Positions 13,522 through 23,633 of a DNA stretch of 25,654 bases are shown here, one piece after another. The translations under genes and the position numbers were made by a program. Position 1 is the first letter of the stretch; every line of letters begins with the position of its first letter. This DNA is from a virus. The DNA is taken from positions 1-25,654 of IMG/VR virus record IMGVR_UViG_3300021961_000570; one strand, given 5' to 3'. The notes beneath the pieces were generated by a model, which saw nothing but the letters and a program-made list of their open reading frames with translations, was not told the origin of the DNA and did no database searches.

Positions 13522-16500
13522 ATGGCAAAAACAATCAATCCTTCAAAACTACTACCATCAGCAAAATCAACAGCAATTGTAAGGGTTGGAAAACCTAATA
13601 TTATTGCAAAAACATCTCCACTATCAAAAGGTTTATTAGCAACAAGACAATCAAAGGATGCTACAGATGCAAATAATAAATTAGTTAAAGTAGATAAGTT
13701 TCTAAAATCAGATCTTATAGTCTCTCAAAAGAAAGCAGAAGTCAAGAGAAAGGATACTGAAAAAGAAGACTTTGCAGAAGCAGAAAAGAAATTAGAACTT
13801 CCAAAATTTAAAGGAATAAAACTTCCAGGAATTTCTTTACCTTCCTTAGGGTTTATGGATAGGGTAAAGAGGTTTATATTCTTTACAGCACTTGGATGGG
13901 CATTACCAAAGATACTTGAATTCTTACCTAAACTTGAGGGATTTGCAAATATTATAGGTGGTGTTTATAACTTTGCTGAAGGATTATTTGGTAAGTTATT
14001 TGATGGTTTTATGAGTCTCGTGAAGTTTGGTGGAGACTTAAAAGACAAAACACTAGGATTTATTGCAACGGCAAAGGCAGGTGTAGGTGGAAATTATCAA
14101 AAAGAGTTTGATAAGTTAGAGAAGCAATTCAACACTTTTGTAAATGCTTCTATTATTGCTGGTGTATTAAGTGCTGATATTGGACTTGCTGCGGAATTTC
14201 TAGAGAGAAAATTAGGAAGAAAACTTACTCCACAAGAATTGAAAGAATTTGGTGTGAAACCAGGTTCTGTAGAGGGTAGAGCAATTCAAAGACCTGGAAC
14301 AAAGGCAGAGAGAGCAGCAGCAAAGCAACAAAAAAGAATACAGGGTGCAGAATTAAGAGCAGCAGCAAAAAAACCAAAACCAAAACCTTCTTTATGGCAA
14401 AAATTAACAGGTGGATTAAAATCAAAGTTCGCTGGAGTTGCAGGAAAACTTGCTAAACCATTTTCAAAATTTGCAGGTGCTGCTATTCCTGGTCTTGGTG
14501 CTGCTATTGGATTTGCAGATGCCCAAGCAAGATCAAAGTCTGGGGATAAACTTGGAGCATTTCTTGCTGGATTAAGTGCAAGTTTAGATGCTTTTACTGC
14601 TGCTGTTGCTGTTGCTGGATTAGCATCTGCAGCAACTGGAGTTGGATTACCTGCTGCTGCTGTGTTAGCAACTGCCGCCACAGCAGCAGGTGCTATTTCT
14701 ATGAGTATTGATGTTGTTCTTTTAATTCGTGATATTTTAAAAGCATTTGGAGTTCCTGTATTTAATAAAGGTGGAAGAGTTGTTCGTAAGTATCAAGGTG
14801 GTGGAAATACAAGAGGAGGAAGACCAGTAGGAGCATCAAAGAGAAGAGGAATTACTCCTGCTACAAGAAAAATAAAACAAACAAAACCACCAAAGTCTCA
14901 ACCTGGTAGAGATGTTGGTGGCGAAAACAAAATCAAGAGACTATATCCAAATACAGGAAAACGATTTATAACAGAACAAGAGTGGAGAGATTCTGGTTCA
15001 ACCTTAACTTATAATGAGTATCTTGTTCAAGAAAGGCAGAATGAAGGAAAGAAACCAAATCCATATAAAGCACTTACATCAACCGCAAAAATCTTAAAAG
15101 AAATTCCACTTGTTGGTGGAATTATGGGTGCTGCTGTTGATATTGCATTAGGCCAAAAACCAGATGTAAATGTTTATCGTTCTCTCTCTGCTGGAATTGG
15201 AAGTCTTGTAGAAAGTCTTGCAAATCAAAAGACAAACCAAAGTGTAACTTCTTTAATGAGAAACATTAAAGGTTTTGCTGAAGGTGGTAAGGTTCCTGCA
15301 TCAAGAGAACTTAAAGGAGATTATAGATCTCTTAGTTCTGGTGATATGATTGCTAAAGTTCTTGGTCCTACCATTGATCAAAGAGTGAATGAAGCAATTC
15401 AAAGTATTCAAAAAGAATTGCAAAAGAGAAAAGAAGGAGCACCTGGACAACCTCCTGGACAACCTCCTGGACCTTCGAGAACTGATGATGGTGCTCCTCC
15501 AGGTGATTATGATTCTGGAAAAACCGGATCTTATGCATCTGGCGCTTATATCGGTGAACCTGGTGATACTGATGGACAACAAACTGGACTTGATATGAAC
15601 TTATCTGGTGGAATAGGAACACCAATATATGCACCTAGAGATTTAATTTATAGATCCAAAGGCACTGATGGTAATCCTTCTGTTGGATTAAATGGAACTC
15701 CTGACGTTTTGGGTCCAAGTGGATCTGGTTTTGGGTATTATGGGGCTTATTATTTTAAAGAAGGAAATAAAGAGTATGAAGTTTTAATGGGGCATTTTAG
15801 AGATACTCCATATAAAGGTTCTAAAGATGGTCAAGTTATACCAAAGGGAACTCTATTAGGTTATCAAGGTGCTTCTGGAAGAACCATAGGTGCTGGAGGT
15901 AAACCATATCCACATATTTCACTTCATTTAAATGGAATTGGTTTTAGTGCATCTAATCAAAAGTTAGTAGAATTTGCTGATAGTCTGGTAAAGTCTGGAG
16001 GAACTAAAGCAAAGGATCCACCTTCTACTGCAAAAGGAACATCAATTGCATCTTGGTATGGTCCAGATTTTTATGGAAATCAAACTGCAGATAATACTGG
16101 AAAATATATTCTAAAAAGAGATAGTCTTTGGGTAGCACATAAAACACTACCATTTGGAACCAGAGTTAAATTTACATATAATGGAAAAACGATAACTTTA
16201 CCTGTTAGAGATAGAGGACCATTTGAGCCTGGAAGAGACTGGGATTTAACCGAAGCAGCTGCGGAACAAATTGGACTAAAAACCGGATCCAGAAGTGGAA
16301 CAGGATCTGTTCAATATGAAATTTTAGGAAAACAAGGTGGTGGTCTTATATCACCAAGAAAACCAAATCGTCCAATTCCAAATTCCTTTGCGTCTTATGA
16401 AACTTATGGAAGTGGTATGATGATTGCAATTCAACCAATTATTGTTGAAAAACAAGTTCCAGTTTCAGGTGGCGGAAACAAGATGATTGCATTCCCGGTT

Positions 16501-16548
16501 CCAGTTGCTGTAAATAGTAATATTGATAACGCTTTCATTGGAGGATAA
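13522..16548 (+). CDS. Tape-measure-like virion protein B with M23-like and RlpA-like domains, 1008 aa
   Basis: The largest protein here. It has a basic N-terminus and the segment MDRVKRFIFFTALGWALPKI (about 112-131) shared with the previous gene. An Ala-rich hydrophobic stretch (about 344-406) and a Gly/Lys/Arg-rich region follow, then a PGQPPGQPPGP linker (about 640-651). Two wall-directed folds come next. The first (about 670-815) resembles M23 peptidases: TGLDMN, GTPIYAP, MGHF (His758), GTLLGYQGASGRTIG and PHISLHL. However, the first zinc His is Gln687, and Ser800 stands at the expected second position of HxH, so activity is doubtful. The second (about 839-935) is an RlpA-like double-psi barrel: ASWYGPDFYGNQTA, VAHKTLPFGTRVKF, and VRDRGPFEPGRDWDLTEAAA. 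His873 and Asp897 are kept, but the Glu of the TAxGExY motif is replaced (Lys861). It probably acts on or binds peptidoglycan during entry. Confidence 0.75.
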   Translation: MAKTINPSKLLPSAKSTAIVRVGKPNIIAKTSPLSKGLLATRQSKDATDANNKLVKVDKFLKSDLIVSQKKAEVKRKDTEKEDFAEAEKKLELPKFKGIKLPGISLPSLGFMDRVKRFIFFTALGWALPKILEFLPKLEGFANIIGGVYNFAEGLFGKLFDGFMSLVKFGGDLKDKTLGFIATAKAGVGGNYQKEFDKLEKQFNTFVNASIIAGVLSADIGLAAEFLERKLGRKLTPQELKEFGVKPGSVEGRAIQRPGTKAERAAAKQQKRIQGAELRAAAKKPKPKPSLWQKLTGGLKSKFAGVAGKLAKPFSKFAGAAIPGLGAAIGFADAQARSKSGDKLGAFLAGLSASLDAFTAAVAVAGLASAATGVGLPAAAVLATAATAAGAISMSIDVVLLIRDILKAFGVPVFNKGGRVVRKYQGGGNTRGGRPVGASKRRGITPATRKIKQTKPPKSQPGRDVGGENKIKRLYPNTGKRFITEQEWRDSGSTLTYNEYLVQERQNEGKKPNPYKALTSTAKILKEIPLVGGIMGAAVDIALGQKPDVNVYRSLSAGIGSLVESLANQKTNQSVTSLMRNIKGFAEGGKVPASRELKGDYRSLSSGDMIAKVLGPTIDQRVNEAIQSIQKELQKRKEGAPGQPPGQPPGPSRTDDGAPPGDYDSGKTGSYASGAYIGEPGDTDGQQTGLDMNLSGGIGTPIYAPRDLIYRSKGTDGNPSVGLNGTPDVLGPSGSGFGYYGAYYFKEGNKEYEVLMGHFRDTPYKGSKDGQVIPKGTLLGYQGASGRTIGAGGKPYPHISLHLNGIGFSASNQKLVEFADSLVKSGGTKAKDPPSTAKGTSIASWYGPDFYGNQTADNTGKYILKRDSLWVAHKTLPFGTRVKFTYNGKTITLPVRDRGPFEPGRDWDLTEAAAEQIGLKTGSRSGTGSVQYEILGKQGGGLISPRKPNRPIPNSFASYETYGSGMMIAIQPIIVEKQVPVSGGGNKMIAFPVPVAVNSNIDNAFIGG
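15442..15473 (+). repeat. Short tandem repeat coding for a Pro-Gly-Gln linker
   Basis: The 12-base unit CCTGGACAACCT is present twice, followed by a partial third copy. It encodes PGQPPGQPPGP and separates the helical, tape-measure-like part of the 1008-aa protein from its wall-directed domains. It may vary in copy number by slippage. Confidence 0.7.
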
Positions 16549-16550
16549 AA

Positions 16551-17885
16551 ATGCCCGCGAATATTGCAGCACAAGGCGGTCAGGCACAAGTTAATTTATT
16601 TGAGATTGAATCAAACTATGATAAACCTAAGTTAGACTTAGCAGGTGGTATTATTGAATTAAATTATTATGAAAGTATTCTCGATAATACAGTAAGAGCA
16701 ACTGCAACTCTTGCTGACACCGGTTATAGAAAAGAACAAGGTTCCGCAGTTACTGAAGAGAAAGGAATTAAACTTACAACTGGTGAAAAAGTTAGTCTAA
16801 AAATTACTGATGGATATAATACGACTTTATCTTTTCTTGGGAACAAACATTTAGTAGTACAAGTACCGAGGCAAACTGCAGGAACAACTAATAAAATTAC
16901 TTTTGACTTGGATCTTATCACTTCAGAGGCAGTAAATAATGATTTGGTTCCATTTAGAGTCACTAAAAGATATGATGGAAAAATTTCTGATACTGTGGAA
17001 AAAATATTAAAAGAAGTATTAAAGACTACTAAAGAACTTGATATTGATACAACTTTAAATTCTTTAAGTGTTTTGCCAATAACTAAAAAACCTCTTGGTC
17101 TACCATTTGGACAATGCACTTGGTTGGGTCCAAGATCAGTTCCCGATGTTCAAGATGCAAAAGGGAAACTTGCTGGGTTTCTTTTCTTTGAAACTTATGA
17201 GGGTTATAAGTTTAAATCTATTGATAAACTATTTGAACAGAAACCGAAGAGAAAGTTAATCTTTAATAATTTAATTGGAGAAGTTCCTCCTACATATGAT
17301 GCAAAAATATTACAATATTCTTTTACAAGTTCTTTAGATCTTAAAAATATTTTACAGACAGGATCTCATTTGAAGTCAGAATTAAGAGCAATGAATCCTT
17401 ATGAGAGTTCTTATCGCAAAAATGAGGCAGACTCTAAGGATCAATTTAATGAAACTAATAATGCTGGAAAAGAGCAGCCTGTAATTGGAAAATTTTTAAA
17501 TATTCAAGAACAATCATCAAGAATATCTTTTAAACTTGATGATATGGGCGCACTTGTTCCTGGAAAAACATTAAAGGATCAACTTCAAAAATCAACTTAT
17601 GTAAACTATAACAATGATGAGATTTTGAGACAATCTTACATGCGTTATAATAATCTCTTTTCAACCAAACTTTCTATTATAATTCCCGGAGATTTCAGTC
17701 TTCATGCAGGAGATTTGTTACACTGTGATTTTCCTGAAGTTACAAGTAATAATACAAAACTTGTAAGTGAGAAGGTAAGTGGTATATATATGATATCAGA
17801 TGTGTGTCACCGTATAACAAAAAATAGTTGTTATACACGACTCAACTTAGTGAGAGATTCAATTGGTAGAAAAGCATCTAAGTAA
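16551..17885 (+). CDS. 27: Baseplate central hub protein gp27
   Basis: gp27 forms the trimeric hub ring that holds the gp5 spike. The 444-aa product (T4: 391) opens with QAQVNLFEIESNYDKPKLDL and GGIIELNYYESILDNTVRAT, typical of the first tube-like domain of hub proteins. It later has LTTGEKVSLKITDGYNTTLS, FLFFETYEGYKFKSIDKL, and ends with FSTKLSIIIPGDFSLHAGDL, then ISDVCHRITKNSCYTRLNLV, matching the second tube-like domain that ends hub proteins of this type. GGAGGATAAAA precedes the ATG. The neighbours gp26, gp51 and a gp5-like gene support it. Confidence 0.88.
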   Translation: MPANIAAQGGQAQVNLFEIESNYDKPKLDLAGGIIELNYYESILDNTVRATATLADTGYRKEQGSAVTEEKGIKLTTGEKVSLKITDGYNTTLSFLGNKHLVVQVPRQTAGTTNKITFDLDLITSEAVNNDLVPFRVTKRYDGKISDTVEKILKEVLKTTKELDIDTTLNSLSVLPITKKPLGLPFGQCTWLGPRSVPDVQDAKGKLAGFLFFETYEGYKFKSIDKLFEQKPKRKLIFNNLIGEVPPTYDAKILQYSFTSSLDLKNILQTGSHLKSELRAMNPYESSYRKNEADSKDQFNETNNAGKEQPVIGKFLNIQEQSSRISFKLDDMGALVPGKTLKDQLQKSTYVNYNNDEILRQSYMRYNNLFSTKLSIIIPGDFSLHAGDLLHCDFPEVTSNNTKLVSEKVSGIYMISDVCHRITKNSCYTRLNLVRDSIGRKASK

Positions 17886-17886
17886 A

Positions 17887-18102
17887 ATGGAAAAGTCACT
17901 TCAACAGCATATTAATGATGATCGCGATGAGTTAGATAACCCTAACACAGGTAGTCAGCGTCGTCGTCATTTAGAGGATGAGCTTGATGCTCTAGAAGCT
18001 TATCAAGCAAATCATCCAGATGAAGAACATGATCCAACAGCTCTAGAACTTTACTGTGATACTCATCCAGATGCTCTAGAATGTAGAGTTTATGAGGATT
18101 AA
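17887..18102 (+). CDS. Small acidic protein between gp27 and gp5, 71 aa
   Basis: A 71-aa, strongly acidic protein (MEKSLQQHINDDRDELDNPN...) with two related stretches, LEAYQANHPDEEHDPTA and LELYCDTHPDALECRVY, each built on an L-E-x-Y-x-x-x-HPD pattern. The frame is open from 17863, but that ATG is inside gp27; the ATG at 17887, one base after the gp27 stop, is preferred. Its stop overlaps the start of the gp5-like gene (TAATG), so it is translated with the hub and spike genes. It could be a hub-assembly factor or small structural piece. No family is recognised. Confidence 0.65.
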   Translation: MEKSLQQHINDDRDELDNPNTGSQRRRHLEDELDALEAYQANHPDEEHDPTALELYCDTHPDALECRVYED

Positions 18103-18788
18103 TGAACGCATACTCTGGAAACTTTGATTTAAATACTGTATCTGCTCTACCAAGATGGTTTGGTAGAGTAGTTTCCAGTGTATCGTGGCAAGATAATATT
18201 GAAGCAGCACATTTTGATCCTAAAAATCAAAAAGGTTGGGGTTATCGTTATCGTGTAAGATACTTTGGTTTGCATTCCGGAAGCACTCAAGATCTTCCAG
18301 ATGATCAGTTACCAATGGCAAATGTGATTATGCCAGTGACTGCAGGTTCGGGTCTTGGTGGGTTTATTGATACTCCCGCGATTTCTGCGGGAACAATAGT
18401 GACGGGTATTTTTCTTGATGGAATGGCAGGACAAGAGCCTTACATTGATGGTATTCTAATCAATTCAAACAATTCAGTTCAAAAGTCTCAACCAAAAGAT
18501 GAGATCGGAGGACTTCAACTTTTTAATGATACATATAAAGGAACTAATCCACAGACTGGAGCATTTGTACCCGACTTTCTTCAAGCAATTAAACCAATTA
18601 ATAGACCTTCAAATGCAAGCACTCAGTATAGAGTAGCACAACAAAATCCTCTTACAATAGATGAATTGAGAGCAAGAACAGCAGCAAGAGAAGCAGCGGG
18701 ACCTCAAGTTGGTGATGTAGTAACAGATCAAGAAACTAAAAATCTTATAGAGCAGGAAAGAAAAATTGGAAGAACAGGAACTTTGTAA
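18102..18788 (+). CDS. 5: gp5-like spike protein, OB-fold domain only (no lysozyme)
   Basis: In T4, gp5 is a trimeric spike with an OB-fold domain bound to gp27, a lysozyme domain and a beta-helical needle. This 228-aa protein has the OB part: PRWFGRVVSSVSWQDN (residues 17-32), YRYRVRYFGLHSGSTQDLPD, LPMANVIMPVTAGSGLGGFI, TIVTGIFLDGMAGQEPYIDG. That is the gp5/VgrG-type OB pattern, residues about 17-130. The rest is a short polar tail (RTAAREAAGPQVGDVVTDQE). No lysozyme motif and no needle repeats are present, so it corresponds only to the first third of T4 gp5 (575 aa). Other nearby genes may supply the missing parts. Confidence 0.75.
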   Translation: MNAYSGNFDLNTVSALPRWFGRVVSSVSWQDNIEAAHFDPKNQKGWGYRYRVRYFGLHSGSTQDLPDDQLPMANVIMPVTAGSGLGGFIDTPAISAGTIVTGIFLDGMAGQEPYIDGILINSNNSVQKSQPKDEIGGLQLFNDTYKGTNPQTGAFVPDFLQAIKPINRPSNASTQYRVAQQNPLTIDELRARTAAREAAGPQVGDVVTDQETKNLIEQERKIGRTGTL

Positions 18789-18800
18789 GGAGATAATAAT

Positions 18801-19868
18801 ATGTCAGTAATTCCAGCAGGATCAGCACCATCTAAAGCGATTGTTCAAAGAGCAGATATACATCACACTCTTGATAATCCAGAAATTGGAAGGGCTGCAA
18901 GTGAACAACTAGAAGACGGAAAAAGACAAGAGGCTGTTCAAAGTTCTTGCAAATCTGATAATAGTGATATGAAGGGTATCCAACTCGTCATTAAAAACCT
19001 TCAGAATGATCTTGAAAGAATCAAAAGATTTTCAAATGTTAACTCTGCGTTTGATGCACTTACAAATGAGAATGAAGAACCTTGGAAGTCTATTAAGAAA
19101 GTTATAAATTTCTCTGCGACTGATATTGCTGGTTATGTAAAAAACATTATGGGTCGTGTTCGTGGGTGGGTTATGAACACTATTCAAAATAAAGTTAAGG
19201 AAGTATTACCTTTTCTTTTTCCGGGAGAGATGCCATCTTTTCTAGATAAACTTGGAAAAGGAATCAATGGTCTTTCCTGTGCTTTTGCTAAGATTGTTCG
19301 AGGACTTGCTAAAACAGTCGGCAATCTTTTATTACAAATGCTCGATAAGTTTATCAATGGTCCTATGTGTCTAGCAGAAAACTTTGTTAATAATCTTTTA
19401 AAACAAATTCTTGGTCCTATTGAAACAGCAATTAAATCAGTTCTTGCTATAATTGGAGGTGCTTTAGCAGCAATTCAAAATCTTGCTACTAGTTTGTTTA
19501 ATGCTCTAGATTTTATTACAGGTATTCTTAATTTCTTTAAGTGTGATGATGATAAGGCGTGCCCGACAGTTGATCAAATAAGTTTGTCTGGGGCAGCTTC
19601 TCCAGGTGGAGATGTTCCAGGTCCTAATTCAAGAACTCAATCTTCATCTGCATCTGATGGAGCACAAACAACTGTAGATAATGCAACTTCTCCAGGTGTT
19701 GGTAACGCTAAGTCTTCCTCTGAAGTAGATGCTAGAGTTGCTGCTGCATCTAATACTGATATTGATCAGACATTAAATCAACAAGCACAGGATTATGCGC
19801 CAGGAACTACTGCCAGACAGAGAGCGGATGCAGCAAATAGAGCAAAACAAGCATTAAATTTCGAATAA
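18801..19868 (+). CDS. Predicted virion protein with long hydrophobic helical core, 355 aa
   Basis: Not recognised by family. Three regions are seen. The N-terminus (1-100) is polar and helical, with HHTLDNPEIGRAASEQLEDG and a coil (IQLVIKNLQNDLERIKRF). The middle (about 141-248) is strongly hydrophobic and helical, interspersed with Gly and Lys: FLDKLGKGINGLSCAFAKIV, LLLQMLDKFINGPMCLAENF, IKSVLAIIGGALAAIQNLAT, FITGILNFF. The end (250-355) is Ser/Ala/Asp-rich and likely flexible. A good ribosome site (AAGGAGATAATAAT) precedes the ATG. Lying between the gp5-like OB protein and beta-rich structural genes, it is probably carried in the tail; the hydrophobic middle could contact membrane or line a tube. 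That role is inference. Confidence 0.62.
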   Translation: MSVIPAGSAPSKAIVQRADIHHTLDNPEIGRAASEQLEDGKRQEAVQSSCKSDNSDMKGIQLVIKNLQNDLERIKRFSNVNSAFDALTNENEEPWKSIKKVINFSATDIAGYVKNIMGRVRGWVMNTIQNKVKEVLPFLFPGEMPSFLDKLGKGINGLSCAFAKIVRGLAKTVGNLLLQMLDKFINGPMCLAENFVNNLLKQILGPIETAIKSVLAIIGGALAAIQNLATSLFNALDFITGILNFFKCDDDKACPTVDQISLSGAASPGGDVPGPNSRTQSSSASDGAQTTVDNATSPGVGNAKSSSEVDARVAAASNTDIDQTLNQQAQDYAPGTTARQRADAANRAKQALNFE

Positions 19869-19869
19869 T

Positions 19870-21015
19870 ATGGCAGATCAATACAGAGACTCCTGCGTAG
19901 ACAGGCAAAATAAAAATAGAAAATCATTTAAAGGAAACCCAGTTGATCCCATTCGGGTTTCTTTCTATGATAAAGATGGTATGAGAGTAAATGATGTGAC
20001 CCGCAGTGAAGCAAACTGTATTGCAAGTTTAAATCCACAGCAACAGTTCTTTTATCAAGATGGAAATGGGTATCAAAGAGAGATTTTAATAGACAAAGTA
20101 AATGCACTTTCAATTCTAGATGCTCTTCCTGATGCACCAGCATGTCCAACAAATCCTCAACTCTGTGGTCCTCCAAGAGTTCAGTTTTTTGGTGGAATGG
20201 GAATGGGTGCAATGGCAAATGCTGTCATTAGTCCAAACTCAGGATCAATTATTGGATTTGATATTGTAAATCCTGGATTCAATTATCTTACTCCACCTTT
20301 TGCAAATCTTGTAGATGAATGTGGGTATGGATCAGGCGGAACTTTGAGAGTACAATCTCGACCATATACAGGAGGTGATCCTCAGAAAAGTGGTTTAGAA
20401 ATTAAAAATATTGTTATTACTGCACCTGGAGATGGGTATCTTGCAGCTCCTAATGGTGCTTTAGGTGGAAATGGTAGGGTATGGAAAGATGTTAATGAGG
20501 GATATGTTGAAACCGAAGATGGTGGGTATTATGTTGTCCCCACTGGTAAACAACCACCAGACCTTCTTCCTGGAGATGAGTTTTTCCCACCCCAACCCCA
20601 ACCTCAACCAAATCTACAATTAGACCCACAATTACCAACTTATCCTGCTGTAACTGAGATAGAAGAAGTTTTTGTAGATAATCCTGGTTTTGGTTATGAA
20701 CCTGGAGACACTTTAGAAGTAGTATCTGATGATGGAACAAGTAAAGGAGCAGTTCTTGAACCTGTTATAAATGATAGAGGAGAGATTACTCAAATAAGAG
20801 TCGTAAGTCCTGGAATTGGATTTGTAGATCTCCCAGAAATTATTATAAATTCTATTAGGGGTTATAATGCAAGATTAATTCCTGTTCTTAAAGTTACTCC
20901 AATAGCAGATGTTCCAGATCCTACAATTATTCCACCAGGAACTCAATTAGTTTCTGTTGTTGATTGTGTAGGAAGAATTCCACCCAAAACCCAATTTGAT
21001 ATAGTACCAAGATAA
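19870..21015 (+). CDS. Predicted virion protein with repeated PGxGY beta modules, 381 aa
   Basis: A beta-rich 381-aa protein with at least four copies of a 'Val-x-x-Pro-Gly-x-Gly-Tyr/Phe-x-x-Pro' module: DIVNPGFNYLTPPFANL (about 130), IVITAPGDGYLAAP (about 181), VFVDNPGFGYEPGDTLEV (about 267) and IRVVSPGIGFVDLPEIII (about 309). A Pro/Gln-rich linker (PPQPQPQPNLQLDPQLP) precedes the last two. Such repeats are common in T4-type phage structural proteins of marine phages. Cysteines are conserved-looking (ACPTNPQLCGPP, VDECGYG, VVDCVGR) and may pair. It starts one base after the previous gene and ends one base before the next. A tail-spike or fibre-attachment part is likely; precise role unknown. 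Confidence 0.65.
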   Translation: MADQYRDSCVDRQNKNRKSFKGNPVDPIRVSFYDKDGMRVNDVTRSEANCIASLNPQQQFFYQDGNGYQREILIDKVNALSILDALPDAPACPTNPQLCGPPRVQFFGGMGMGAMANAVISPNSGSIIGFDIVNPGFNYLTPPFANLVDECGYGSGGTLRVQSRPYTGGDPQKSGLEIKNIVITAPGDGYLAAPNGALGGNGRVWKDVNEGYVETEDGGYYVVPTGKQPPDLLPGDEFFPPQPQPQPNLQLDPQLPTYPAVTEIEEVFVDNPGFGYEPGDTLEVVSDDGTSKGAVLEPVINDRGEITQIRVVSPGIGFVDLPEIIINSIRGYNARLIPVLKVTPIADVPDPTIIPPGTQLVSVVDCVGRIPPKTQFDIVPR

Positions 21016-22415: not shown

Positions 22416-23633
22416 ATGGCAGAATTTAATGGATTTACACCAAGAGAGGCACCAGAAGTTCCAGCAAATCCCAATTCAGGTAGTTTGAATATTAGTGGTC
22501 TAGGATCTTTTGGGTCATTATACGTTAGTGGAGTAGTAACAGCGGTAACATATTATGGAGATGGGTCATACTTAACAGGAGTTGGAACAGTTTCTTCTCA
22601 GTGGGTAACAACAATAGCGGGAATTCATACACTTTCTAATGTTGGCATAGGAACTATAAACCCAACAGTAAAATTAGATGTTGCCGGAGAAATTAAATCT
22701 AGAAGAACGAACAATACTTTTGAAGGTGGTCAATTAACATTTACACGGTCTGTTGATGATGCTGATGCATATACAATTGATGTTTATGGAAATACTATAG
22801 CAAATGCAAGATTAAGATTTATTGATGTTGATTCTACTGCAGAAAGAATGTCGATTGATAAGTCAGGAAATATTCTTATAGGTACAGGATCTTCGACAGG
22901 AACTGCATCACAACCACTTCAAGTTAATGGTGGTGTTTATATTTCTAATAATGTTGGTATAGGAGCAACAAATCCGGGTGCTAAACTTCAGGTTGATGGT
23001 AATGTTAGAATTGGAAATTCTAACACTTCTAACGAACTAAGATTTTATGGAATTGTTGGAGATAATCCTGGTGGATATAATCATTCTGCCATCATTGAGC
23101 GTAAATGGGGTTTAGATGATCAATCAGAACTTCTTATTTTTAAAGGAAATGATCCAGATACTGGAACTATTCACGATAGGATGAGAATTGTTGCTTGTGG
23201 TCGTATTGTTTTTCATAGTTATAATGATTTTGCTGATGTTGATACTTACATTGGGGCAGCAGGAACATCTAACATAAATGGGTCTGGATATTTTAATGGA
23301 AATAATCTAACTGTCACTGGAACAGTTACTCAGAATTCTGATGAATCTCTGAAAGATAATATCAGAACAATATCTGATGGATTAGAAAAAGTTCTTAAAC
23401 TTCGTGGAGTTGAATTTAATAGAAAGGATGAAGAAGAAAGTATTCAACACATCGGATTAATAGCACAAGAGGTTGAGAAAATTATTCCTGAGGTCGTAAC
23501 TAAAGATATGAATGGACTCAAATCAGTTGCTTATAGCAATCTTGTGGCAGTTTTGGTAGAGTCCATCAAAGAATTAAATCAAAAGGTTGAACGCTTGACA
23601 TCCATTGTAGAGTCTAGTACAATACTTAGGTAA
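22416..23633 (+). CDS. Tail fibre protein with C-terminal S74 intramolecular chaperone
   Basis: A 405-aa fibre protein. The shaft contains typical repeats (GNVGIGTINPTVKLDVAGEI-like at about 76 and NNVGIGATNPGAKLQVDGNV at about 178). The end (about residue 305 on) is a Peptidase_S74 chaperone domain: NSDESLKDNI with the catalytic Ser308 just after Asn307 and Lys313, then GVEFNRKDEE, HIGLIAQEVEKIIPEVV and a closing coil (LNQKVERLTSIVES). In this family the chaperone helps three chains fold and then cuts itself off. The serine, the Asp and the Lys are present, so cleavage is plausible. AAGGAG lies just before the ATG. The gene's last codons contain the next promoter. Confidence 0.88.
   Translation: MAEFNGFTPREAPEVPANPNSGSLNISGLGSFGSLYVSGVVTAVTYYGDGSYLTGVGTVSSQWVTTIAGIHTLSNVGIGTINPTVKLDVAGEIKSRRTNNTFEGGQLTFTRSVDDADAYTIDVYGNTIANARLRFIDVDSTAERMSIDKSGNILIGTGSSTGTASQPLQVNGGVYISNNVGIGATNPGAKLQVDGNVRIGNSNTSNELRFYGIVGDNPGGYNHSAIIERKWGLDDQSELLIFKGNDPDTGTIHDRMRIVACGRIVFHSYNDFADVDTYIGAAGTSNINGSGYFNGNNLTVTGTVTQNSDESLKDNIRTISDGLEKVLKLRGVEFNRKDEEESIQHIGLIAQEVEKIIPEVVTKDMNGLKSVAYSNLVAVLVESIKELNQKVERLTSIVESSTILR
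23595..23623 (+). promoter_or_regulatory. sigma70-type promoter for the right-hand gene cluster
   Basis: A perfect TTGACA (23595-23600) and TACAAT (23618-23623) are 17 bp apart, inside the last codons of the S74 fibre gene. The predicted start near 23630 gives a leader of about 19 bases to the ATG at 23649. It would restart transcription after the late block. Confidence 0.75.

Follow-up and report, generated by a model that had tools for sequence, protein, structure and literature searches.

Altered M23-like and RlpA-type domains in an exchangeable slot on a tail protein of T4-like cyanophages

Genomic context of protein Y

The stretch of viral DNA analysed here (25,654 bases; hereafter the window) encodes a 1008-aa tail protein, designated Y, flanked by a gp26-like/X pair on one side and by a gp27-like hub gene on the other (Table 1). 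The order gp26-like, X, Y, gp27-like, gp5-like is the same in phages S-SM2 and S-SCSM1, and the Y homologue of S-SCSM1 is a virion protein according to a note in the S-SCSM1 record. Because its gp32 (single-stranded DNA-binding protein) shares 72% identity with the counterpart in Synechococcus phage S-SM2, the window is, judged by sequence comparison, a fragment of a T4-like cyanophage.

The frame and length of the Y open reading frame had been given correctly in a first-pass annotation made from the sequence alone. That annotation had also placed the protein among the tape measures; the sole family recognised in Y was that of its N-terminal scaffold, which has no named function. The scaffold is common to the Y homologues and the C-terminal tail to the close relatives, while the region between them varies.

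A Pfam scan of the X protein of the window revealed no lytic domain, and in relatives X also bears exchangeable wall-acting domains, namely GH19, CHAP and glucosaminidase (L003:4699-6993, L006:4717-6993, L009:6146-8995). The gp5-like protein of the window gave no match to a lysozyme domain in Pfam and PHROG scans. The gp5-like hub/spike is split over three open reading frames (18102-18788, 18801-19868 and 19870-21015), which correspond to successive parts of phrog_1922, and one longer reading frame takes the place of these three in L002 and L007. Further downstream, positions 22416-23633 encode a tail-fibre-like protein with a C-terminal Peptidase_S74 intramolecular chaperone (E 5.6e-17).

Table 1. 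Genes, domains and residues at the Y locus (positions in the window)
Feature	Position	Strand	Evidence or conservation
Protein X, upstream of Y and distantly related to it, 768 aa	11211..13517	+	Profile matches
Tail protein Y (P0001), 1008 aa, cassette-bearing	13522..16548	+	Open reading frame; slot X-Y-gp27 as in S-SM2 and S-SCSM1
N-terminal scaffold of Y, residues 1-226, common to Y homologues	13522..14199	+	phrog_35997, E 8.6e-23; alignment; 80 viral loci
M23/LytM-like domain with altered zinc site, residues about 676-825	15547..15996	+	Profile, AlphaFold model, alignments
Gln687 at the zinc-His position of HxxxD	15580..15582	+	Q 27/30, E 2, H 1
Asp691 at the zinc-Asp position	15592..15594	+	Asn in 22/30, Asp in 8/30 copies
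His758, equivalent of the catalytic YxH histidine	15793..15795	+	His 30/30
His798-Ile-Ser800-Leu-His802, replacing HxH	15913..15927	+	H798 30/30, S/T800 30/30 (28/2), H802 30/30
RlpA-type double-psi beta-barrel (DPBB_1), residues 843-932	16048..16317	+	PF03330, E 1.5e-10, above cut-off
Asp857-Asn858-Thr859, with Thr in place of the RlpA Glu and Asp two residues earlier	16090..16098	+	Alignment
His873, conserved RlpA histidine	16138..16140	+	Alignment
Asp897 of the DRGPF motif	16210..16212	+	Invariant in RlpA alignment
C-terminal tail of Y, residues 937-1008, kept when cassettes differ	16330..16545	+	Alignment, 74-84% to L002/L003/L006
gp27-like tail/hub protein	16551..17885	+	phrog_350, E 2.2e-73
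gp5-like OB protein	18102..18788	+	phrog_1922 over OB part only

The M23-like domain

Towards its C-terminus, Y carries an M23/LytM-fold domain followed by an RlpA-type double-psi barrel. Such a tandem had been proposed in the first-pass annotation and was confirmed by profiles, alignments and AlphaFold fold matches; the residues singled out there (Q687, H-I-S-L-H, H873, D897 and the missing Glu) and their numbering were right, and its span of 15550-16330 came close to the two domains, which occupy about 15547-15996 and 16048-16317.

In the window protein the M23 match was weak (PF01551, 14.5 bits, E 6.2e-4 for one genome, below the Pfam cut-off), and the same M23 stretch was matched by several independent members of the family, with E-values down to 0.0023 Pfam-wide and down to 2.6e-5 for a single genome. 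Profile-profile comparison (hhalign) against only three M23s likewise gave a weak match (probability 49%), and a PDB profile search with the family returned only TagE (E 0.18). The AlphaFold model, a check that had been suggested at the outset, reached a core pLDDT of about 88-95 for this domain and displayed the LytM beta-sheet fold: Foldseek matched it to LytM 2b0p (prob 1.00, TMt 0.49), to latent LytM and to phage M23 peptidases (E 7.5e-5).

When the domain was aligned with canonical M23s, Q687 and D691 fell on the His and Asp of HxxxD, H758 on the histidine of YxH, and H798 and S800 on HxH. The YxH-type catalytic histidine is thus present (His758), while Gln687 stands for the zinc-binding His of HxxxD. 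The second His of HxH, likewise a zinc ligand, is replaced by Ser or Thr in 30/30 copies, with the reservation that the register of HISLH may be shifted by two, in which case the first His rather than the second would be lost. The M23-like domain is not a canonical zinc peptidase.

A domain search with the M23-like domain yielded 51 viral loci, and residues were counted in thirty distinct copies aligned to canonical M23s. H758, H798 and H802 were invariant, and the zinc His was Gln in 27, Glu in two and His in one, which rules out that Q687 is a sequencing error or an oddity of a single protein. In nearly all loci the domain lies in the Y slot, ruling out a mobile domain found in unrelated proteins. 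Over 136 pairs from 17 loci, median identity was 69% for the M23-like domain vs 34% for the gp27-like protein, at pS values of 0.57 and 0.61, respectively, that is, at near-saturated synonymous divergence; recent transfer of the domain is accordingly disfavoured as the source of the high identity. These comparisons indicate strong purifying selection on the M23-like domain, and its altered site is selected rather than decaying, because the domain is far better conserved than the gp27-like gene at such synonymous divergence.

A pattern scan of 84,980 prokaryote genomes, of limited sensitivity, found no M23-like relative. Among 50,697 phage records, searched with similarly limited sensitivity, there was no good match and only a partial, weak one in Bacillus phage Bobb. 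In an M23 variant outside the main family (L158:118-1911), Glu occupies the zinc-His position and HxH is replaced by PHTSVDF.

The RlpA-type barrel

The barrel matched TIGR00413 (E 4.7e-18, below the TIGR00413 cut-off) and, both by sequence and by fold, PDB 4avr (PA4485; TMt 0.80). It has the double-psi fold and the conserved RlpA residues His873 and Asp897; the Glu of TA[NS]GE is absent, Thr859 aligning at its position. No SPOR domain match was found, and the barrel is part of the 1008-aa tail protein, not a stand-alone lipoprotein.

Related barrels, gathered by a single-sequence scan, form a variant clade with the motif T-A/S-D-[GN]-T, in which Thr replaces the RlpA Glu in the loci read out. 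The variant barrel sits either on Y (window, L002, L150, L021) or at the N-terminus of a roughly 800-aa spike-like protein (L109:7609-9966, L153-L165). In the variant-barrel modules checked, Y also carries a LAS-type domain, which is M23-like, canonical M23, permuted M23, VanY, or a weak match to DUF5715, which on inspection by eye we consider M15-like. From these alignments, the altered active sites appear as conserved features of two families and not as peculiarities of the window protein.

We take the Glu of TA[NS]GE to be the catalytic residue of P. aeruginosa RlpA. In V. cholerae RlpA, an Asp predicted to lie in the active site is required (PMC8820737). The barrel of Y may cut weakly, perhaps via Asp857 or Asp897, or may only bind.

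An exchangeable slot for wall-acting domains

Between the conserved ends of Y, Pfam recognised a wall-acting domain in 37 of 47 distinct homologues and none in the remaining 10/47. The contents of the slot were tail lysozyme PF18013 (15), DPBB (12), M23 (6), VanY or M15 (6), SleB-type Hydrolase_2 (4), SLT (1) and Amidase_3 (1), counts in which some proteins carry two domains and some matches lie below the curated cut-off. An M23 followed by a DPBB also fills the slot of L051, and pairs of VanY or M15 with DPBB occur there in L021, L023, L033, L037 and L041.

Several M23 domains of the slot are seemingly circularly permuted (L040:8648-9076, L042:8636-9061, L059:8666-9097, L060:6487-6912, L153:1298-1744, L160:1028-1474 and L163:1274-1720). 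In these copies a GxHxHxE hairpin precedes the HxGxD and HL motifs, the catalytic residues being intact, and the canonical M23 profile matches in two pieces of swapped order, which become one piece after rotation. An order-dependent fold search with a model of the permuted-looking domain found no M23.

Possible function of the cassette

We consider it likely that the C-terminus of Y is a wall-entry cassette, composed of the M23-like domain and the RlpA-type barrel, in an exchangeable slot, and the cassette is probably part of the passage of these phages through the host wall. The M23/LytM-fold (LAS-type) domain would engage the peptide stems and the RlpA-type barrel the glycan strands; contraction of the tail would deliver the cassette to the periplasm, and the cassette would locally open or grip the peptidoglycan. 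We infer peptidoglycan as the target and delivery by the tail from the slot and by analogy with phage A-1(L), and the time at which the cassette would act is likewise an assumption of this model.

The idea, already put forward in the first-pass annotation, that the tandem replaces the lysozyme of gp5 was supported in part: no such domain was found on the gp5-like protein, most relatives have wall-lytic domains in the same slot, and A-1(L) provides a precedent (PMC10966104). The accompanying suggestions of a division into one binding and one cutting domain and of an adaptation to the thick cyanobacterial wall found no support; as to the latter, several relatives have an ordinary tail lysozyme in the same Y slot.

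It may be that neither domain cuts, because the zinc ligands are changed in most M23-like members and the RlpA Glu is Thr. From the residue pattern, we give about an even chance that the M23-like domain is a peptidoglycan-binding pseudo-peptidase; that it has remained an active enzyme, its metal site being changed, is appreciably possible, and a regulatory or other role seems quite improbable. Overall, we lean slightly to binding for this domain.

The best-surviving alternative, which we judge somewhat unlikely, is that the M23-like domain is still a peptidoglycan peptidase whose site, with a different metal arrangement or metal-free, is built around His758, His798 and His802 together with the Gln/Glu/His and the Asn/Asp pair. 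Both catalytic His and the new His are kept in 30/30 copies, the domain is under strong purifying selection, and position 687 takes only metal-capable residues (Q, E, H), all of which would suit an enzyme. However, three ligand changes normally abolish zinc binding in M23, and, with a spacing of four residues along a strand, His798 and His802 would be too distant from each other to bind one metal if the strand is regular. The M23-like domain is also the only wall domain seen in several lineages, such as L093, L107, L113 and L126, whose X/spike proteins, as far as scanned, gave no further match to a lytic domain in Pfam, but the contigs of these lineages are incomplete and further lytic enzymes may lie elsewhere. 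A bolder proposal, in our view unlikely, is that the domain represents a new, still-active class of wall-cleaving enzyme, a LytM fold whose zinc ligands have been replaced and in which three His are fixed. Such an enzyme would be the principal wall-entry domain of some uncultured T4-like phages from aquatic habitats and would, at the sensitivity used, be absent from isolates and bacterial genomes.

With an M23 fold without the canonical zinc site, the domain might also be a degenerate LytM factor, one that does not touch the wall but, like EnvC and NlpD, switches on a host amidase or attaches to proteins of the division machinery. An M23 fold that has lost its zinc ligands is the hallmark of the EnvC/NlpD type (PMC9662197), and L014, a canonical M23 of the Y slot, matched EnvC in a PDB search; nevertheless, both catalytic His are retained in 30/30 copies and the slot is otherwise occupied by enzymes, which makes this role very improbable. 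An assembly function, with the two barrels as structural or self-processing parts of the tail hub unrelated to the wall, is equally improbable: Y adjoins hub genes and its scaffold can do without a recognised wall domain in 10/47 homologues, but nearly all the domains exchanged with the cassette are peptidoglycan enzymes, and in A-1(L) the paired domains lyse cells (PMC10966104).

In this one slot of the tail protein, relatives swap wall-acting domains between conserved ends, and two conserved variant families were identified, an M23 lacking the zinc ligands and an RlpA barrel lacking the Glu. Cutting by the M23-like domain would bring new chemistry to a well-known fold; binding alone would make it a pseudo-enzyme of phages that is more strongly constrained than the hub gene next to it.

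Comparison with known systems

In T4, gp5 carries a lysozyme on the hub module for DNA entry, whereas the window has its cassette on Y and no lysozyme was found on its gp5-like protein. The tail-associated M23 lysins of the SP-beta CwlP type, which we take to have a canonical zinc site, differ from Y in their Gram-positive host and in the lack of an RlpA barrel. Like Y, SP-beta CwlP and other such lysins are proteins associated with the tail whose M23 domain serves entry (PMC9662197). EnvC and NlpD share with the window domain an M23 fold without an intact zinc site (PMC9662197), but they are host division regulators, while the window domain keeps both catalytic His and is set in a phage tail. 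The tandem of L051, an uncultured phage with the same scaffold, differs from that of the window in an M23 match above the Pfam cut-off, an intact HLH and a DPBB with the TANGE Glu; the first zinc position of its M23 reads Tyr in the alignment.

The closest parallel is the baseplate hub gp15 of the cyanophage A-1(L) (PDB 8KEA), which likewise combines an RlpA-like barrel, there named an endoglucanase, with an M23 domain on a tail protein, and whose DPBB and M23 domains each lyse Anabaena cells (PMC10966104). The A-1 genome record (L148:12978-15676) gives the hub gene as two open reading frames (lysozyme and peptidase) vs one 899-aa chain in the solved hub. Unlike Y, gp15 has a true hub barrel scaffold with an extra lysozyme-like domain, the opposite domain order, and an intact HLH motif and RlpA Glu. 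The tandem itself is therefore of a known kind; what is new, as far as the sequences indicate, is that two active sites are altered in a conserved way and that cassettes are exchanged so extensively at a single slot of the tail.
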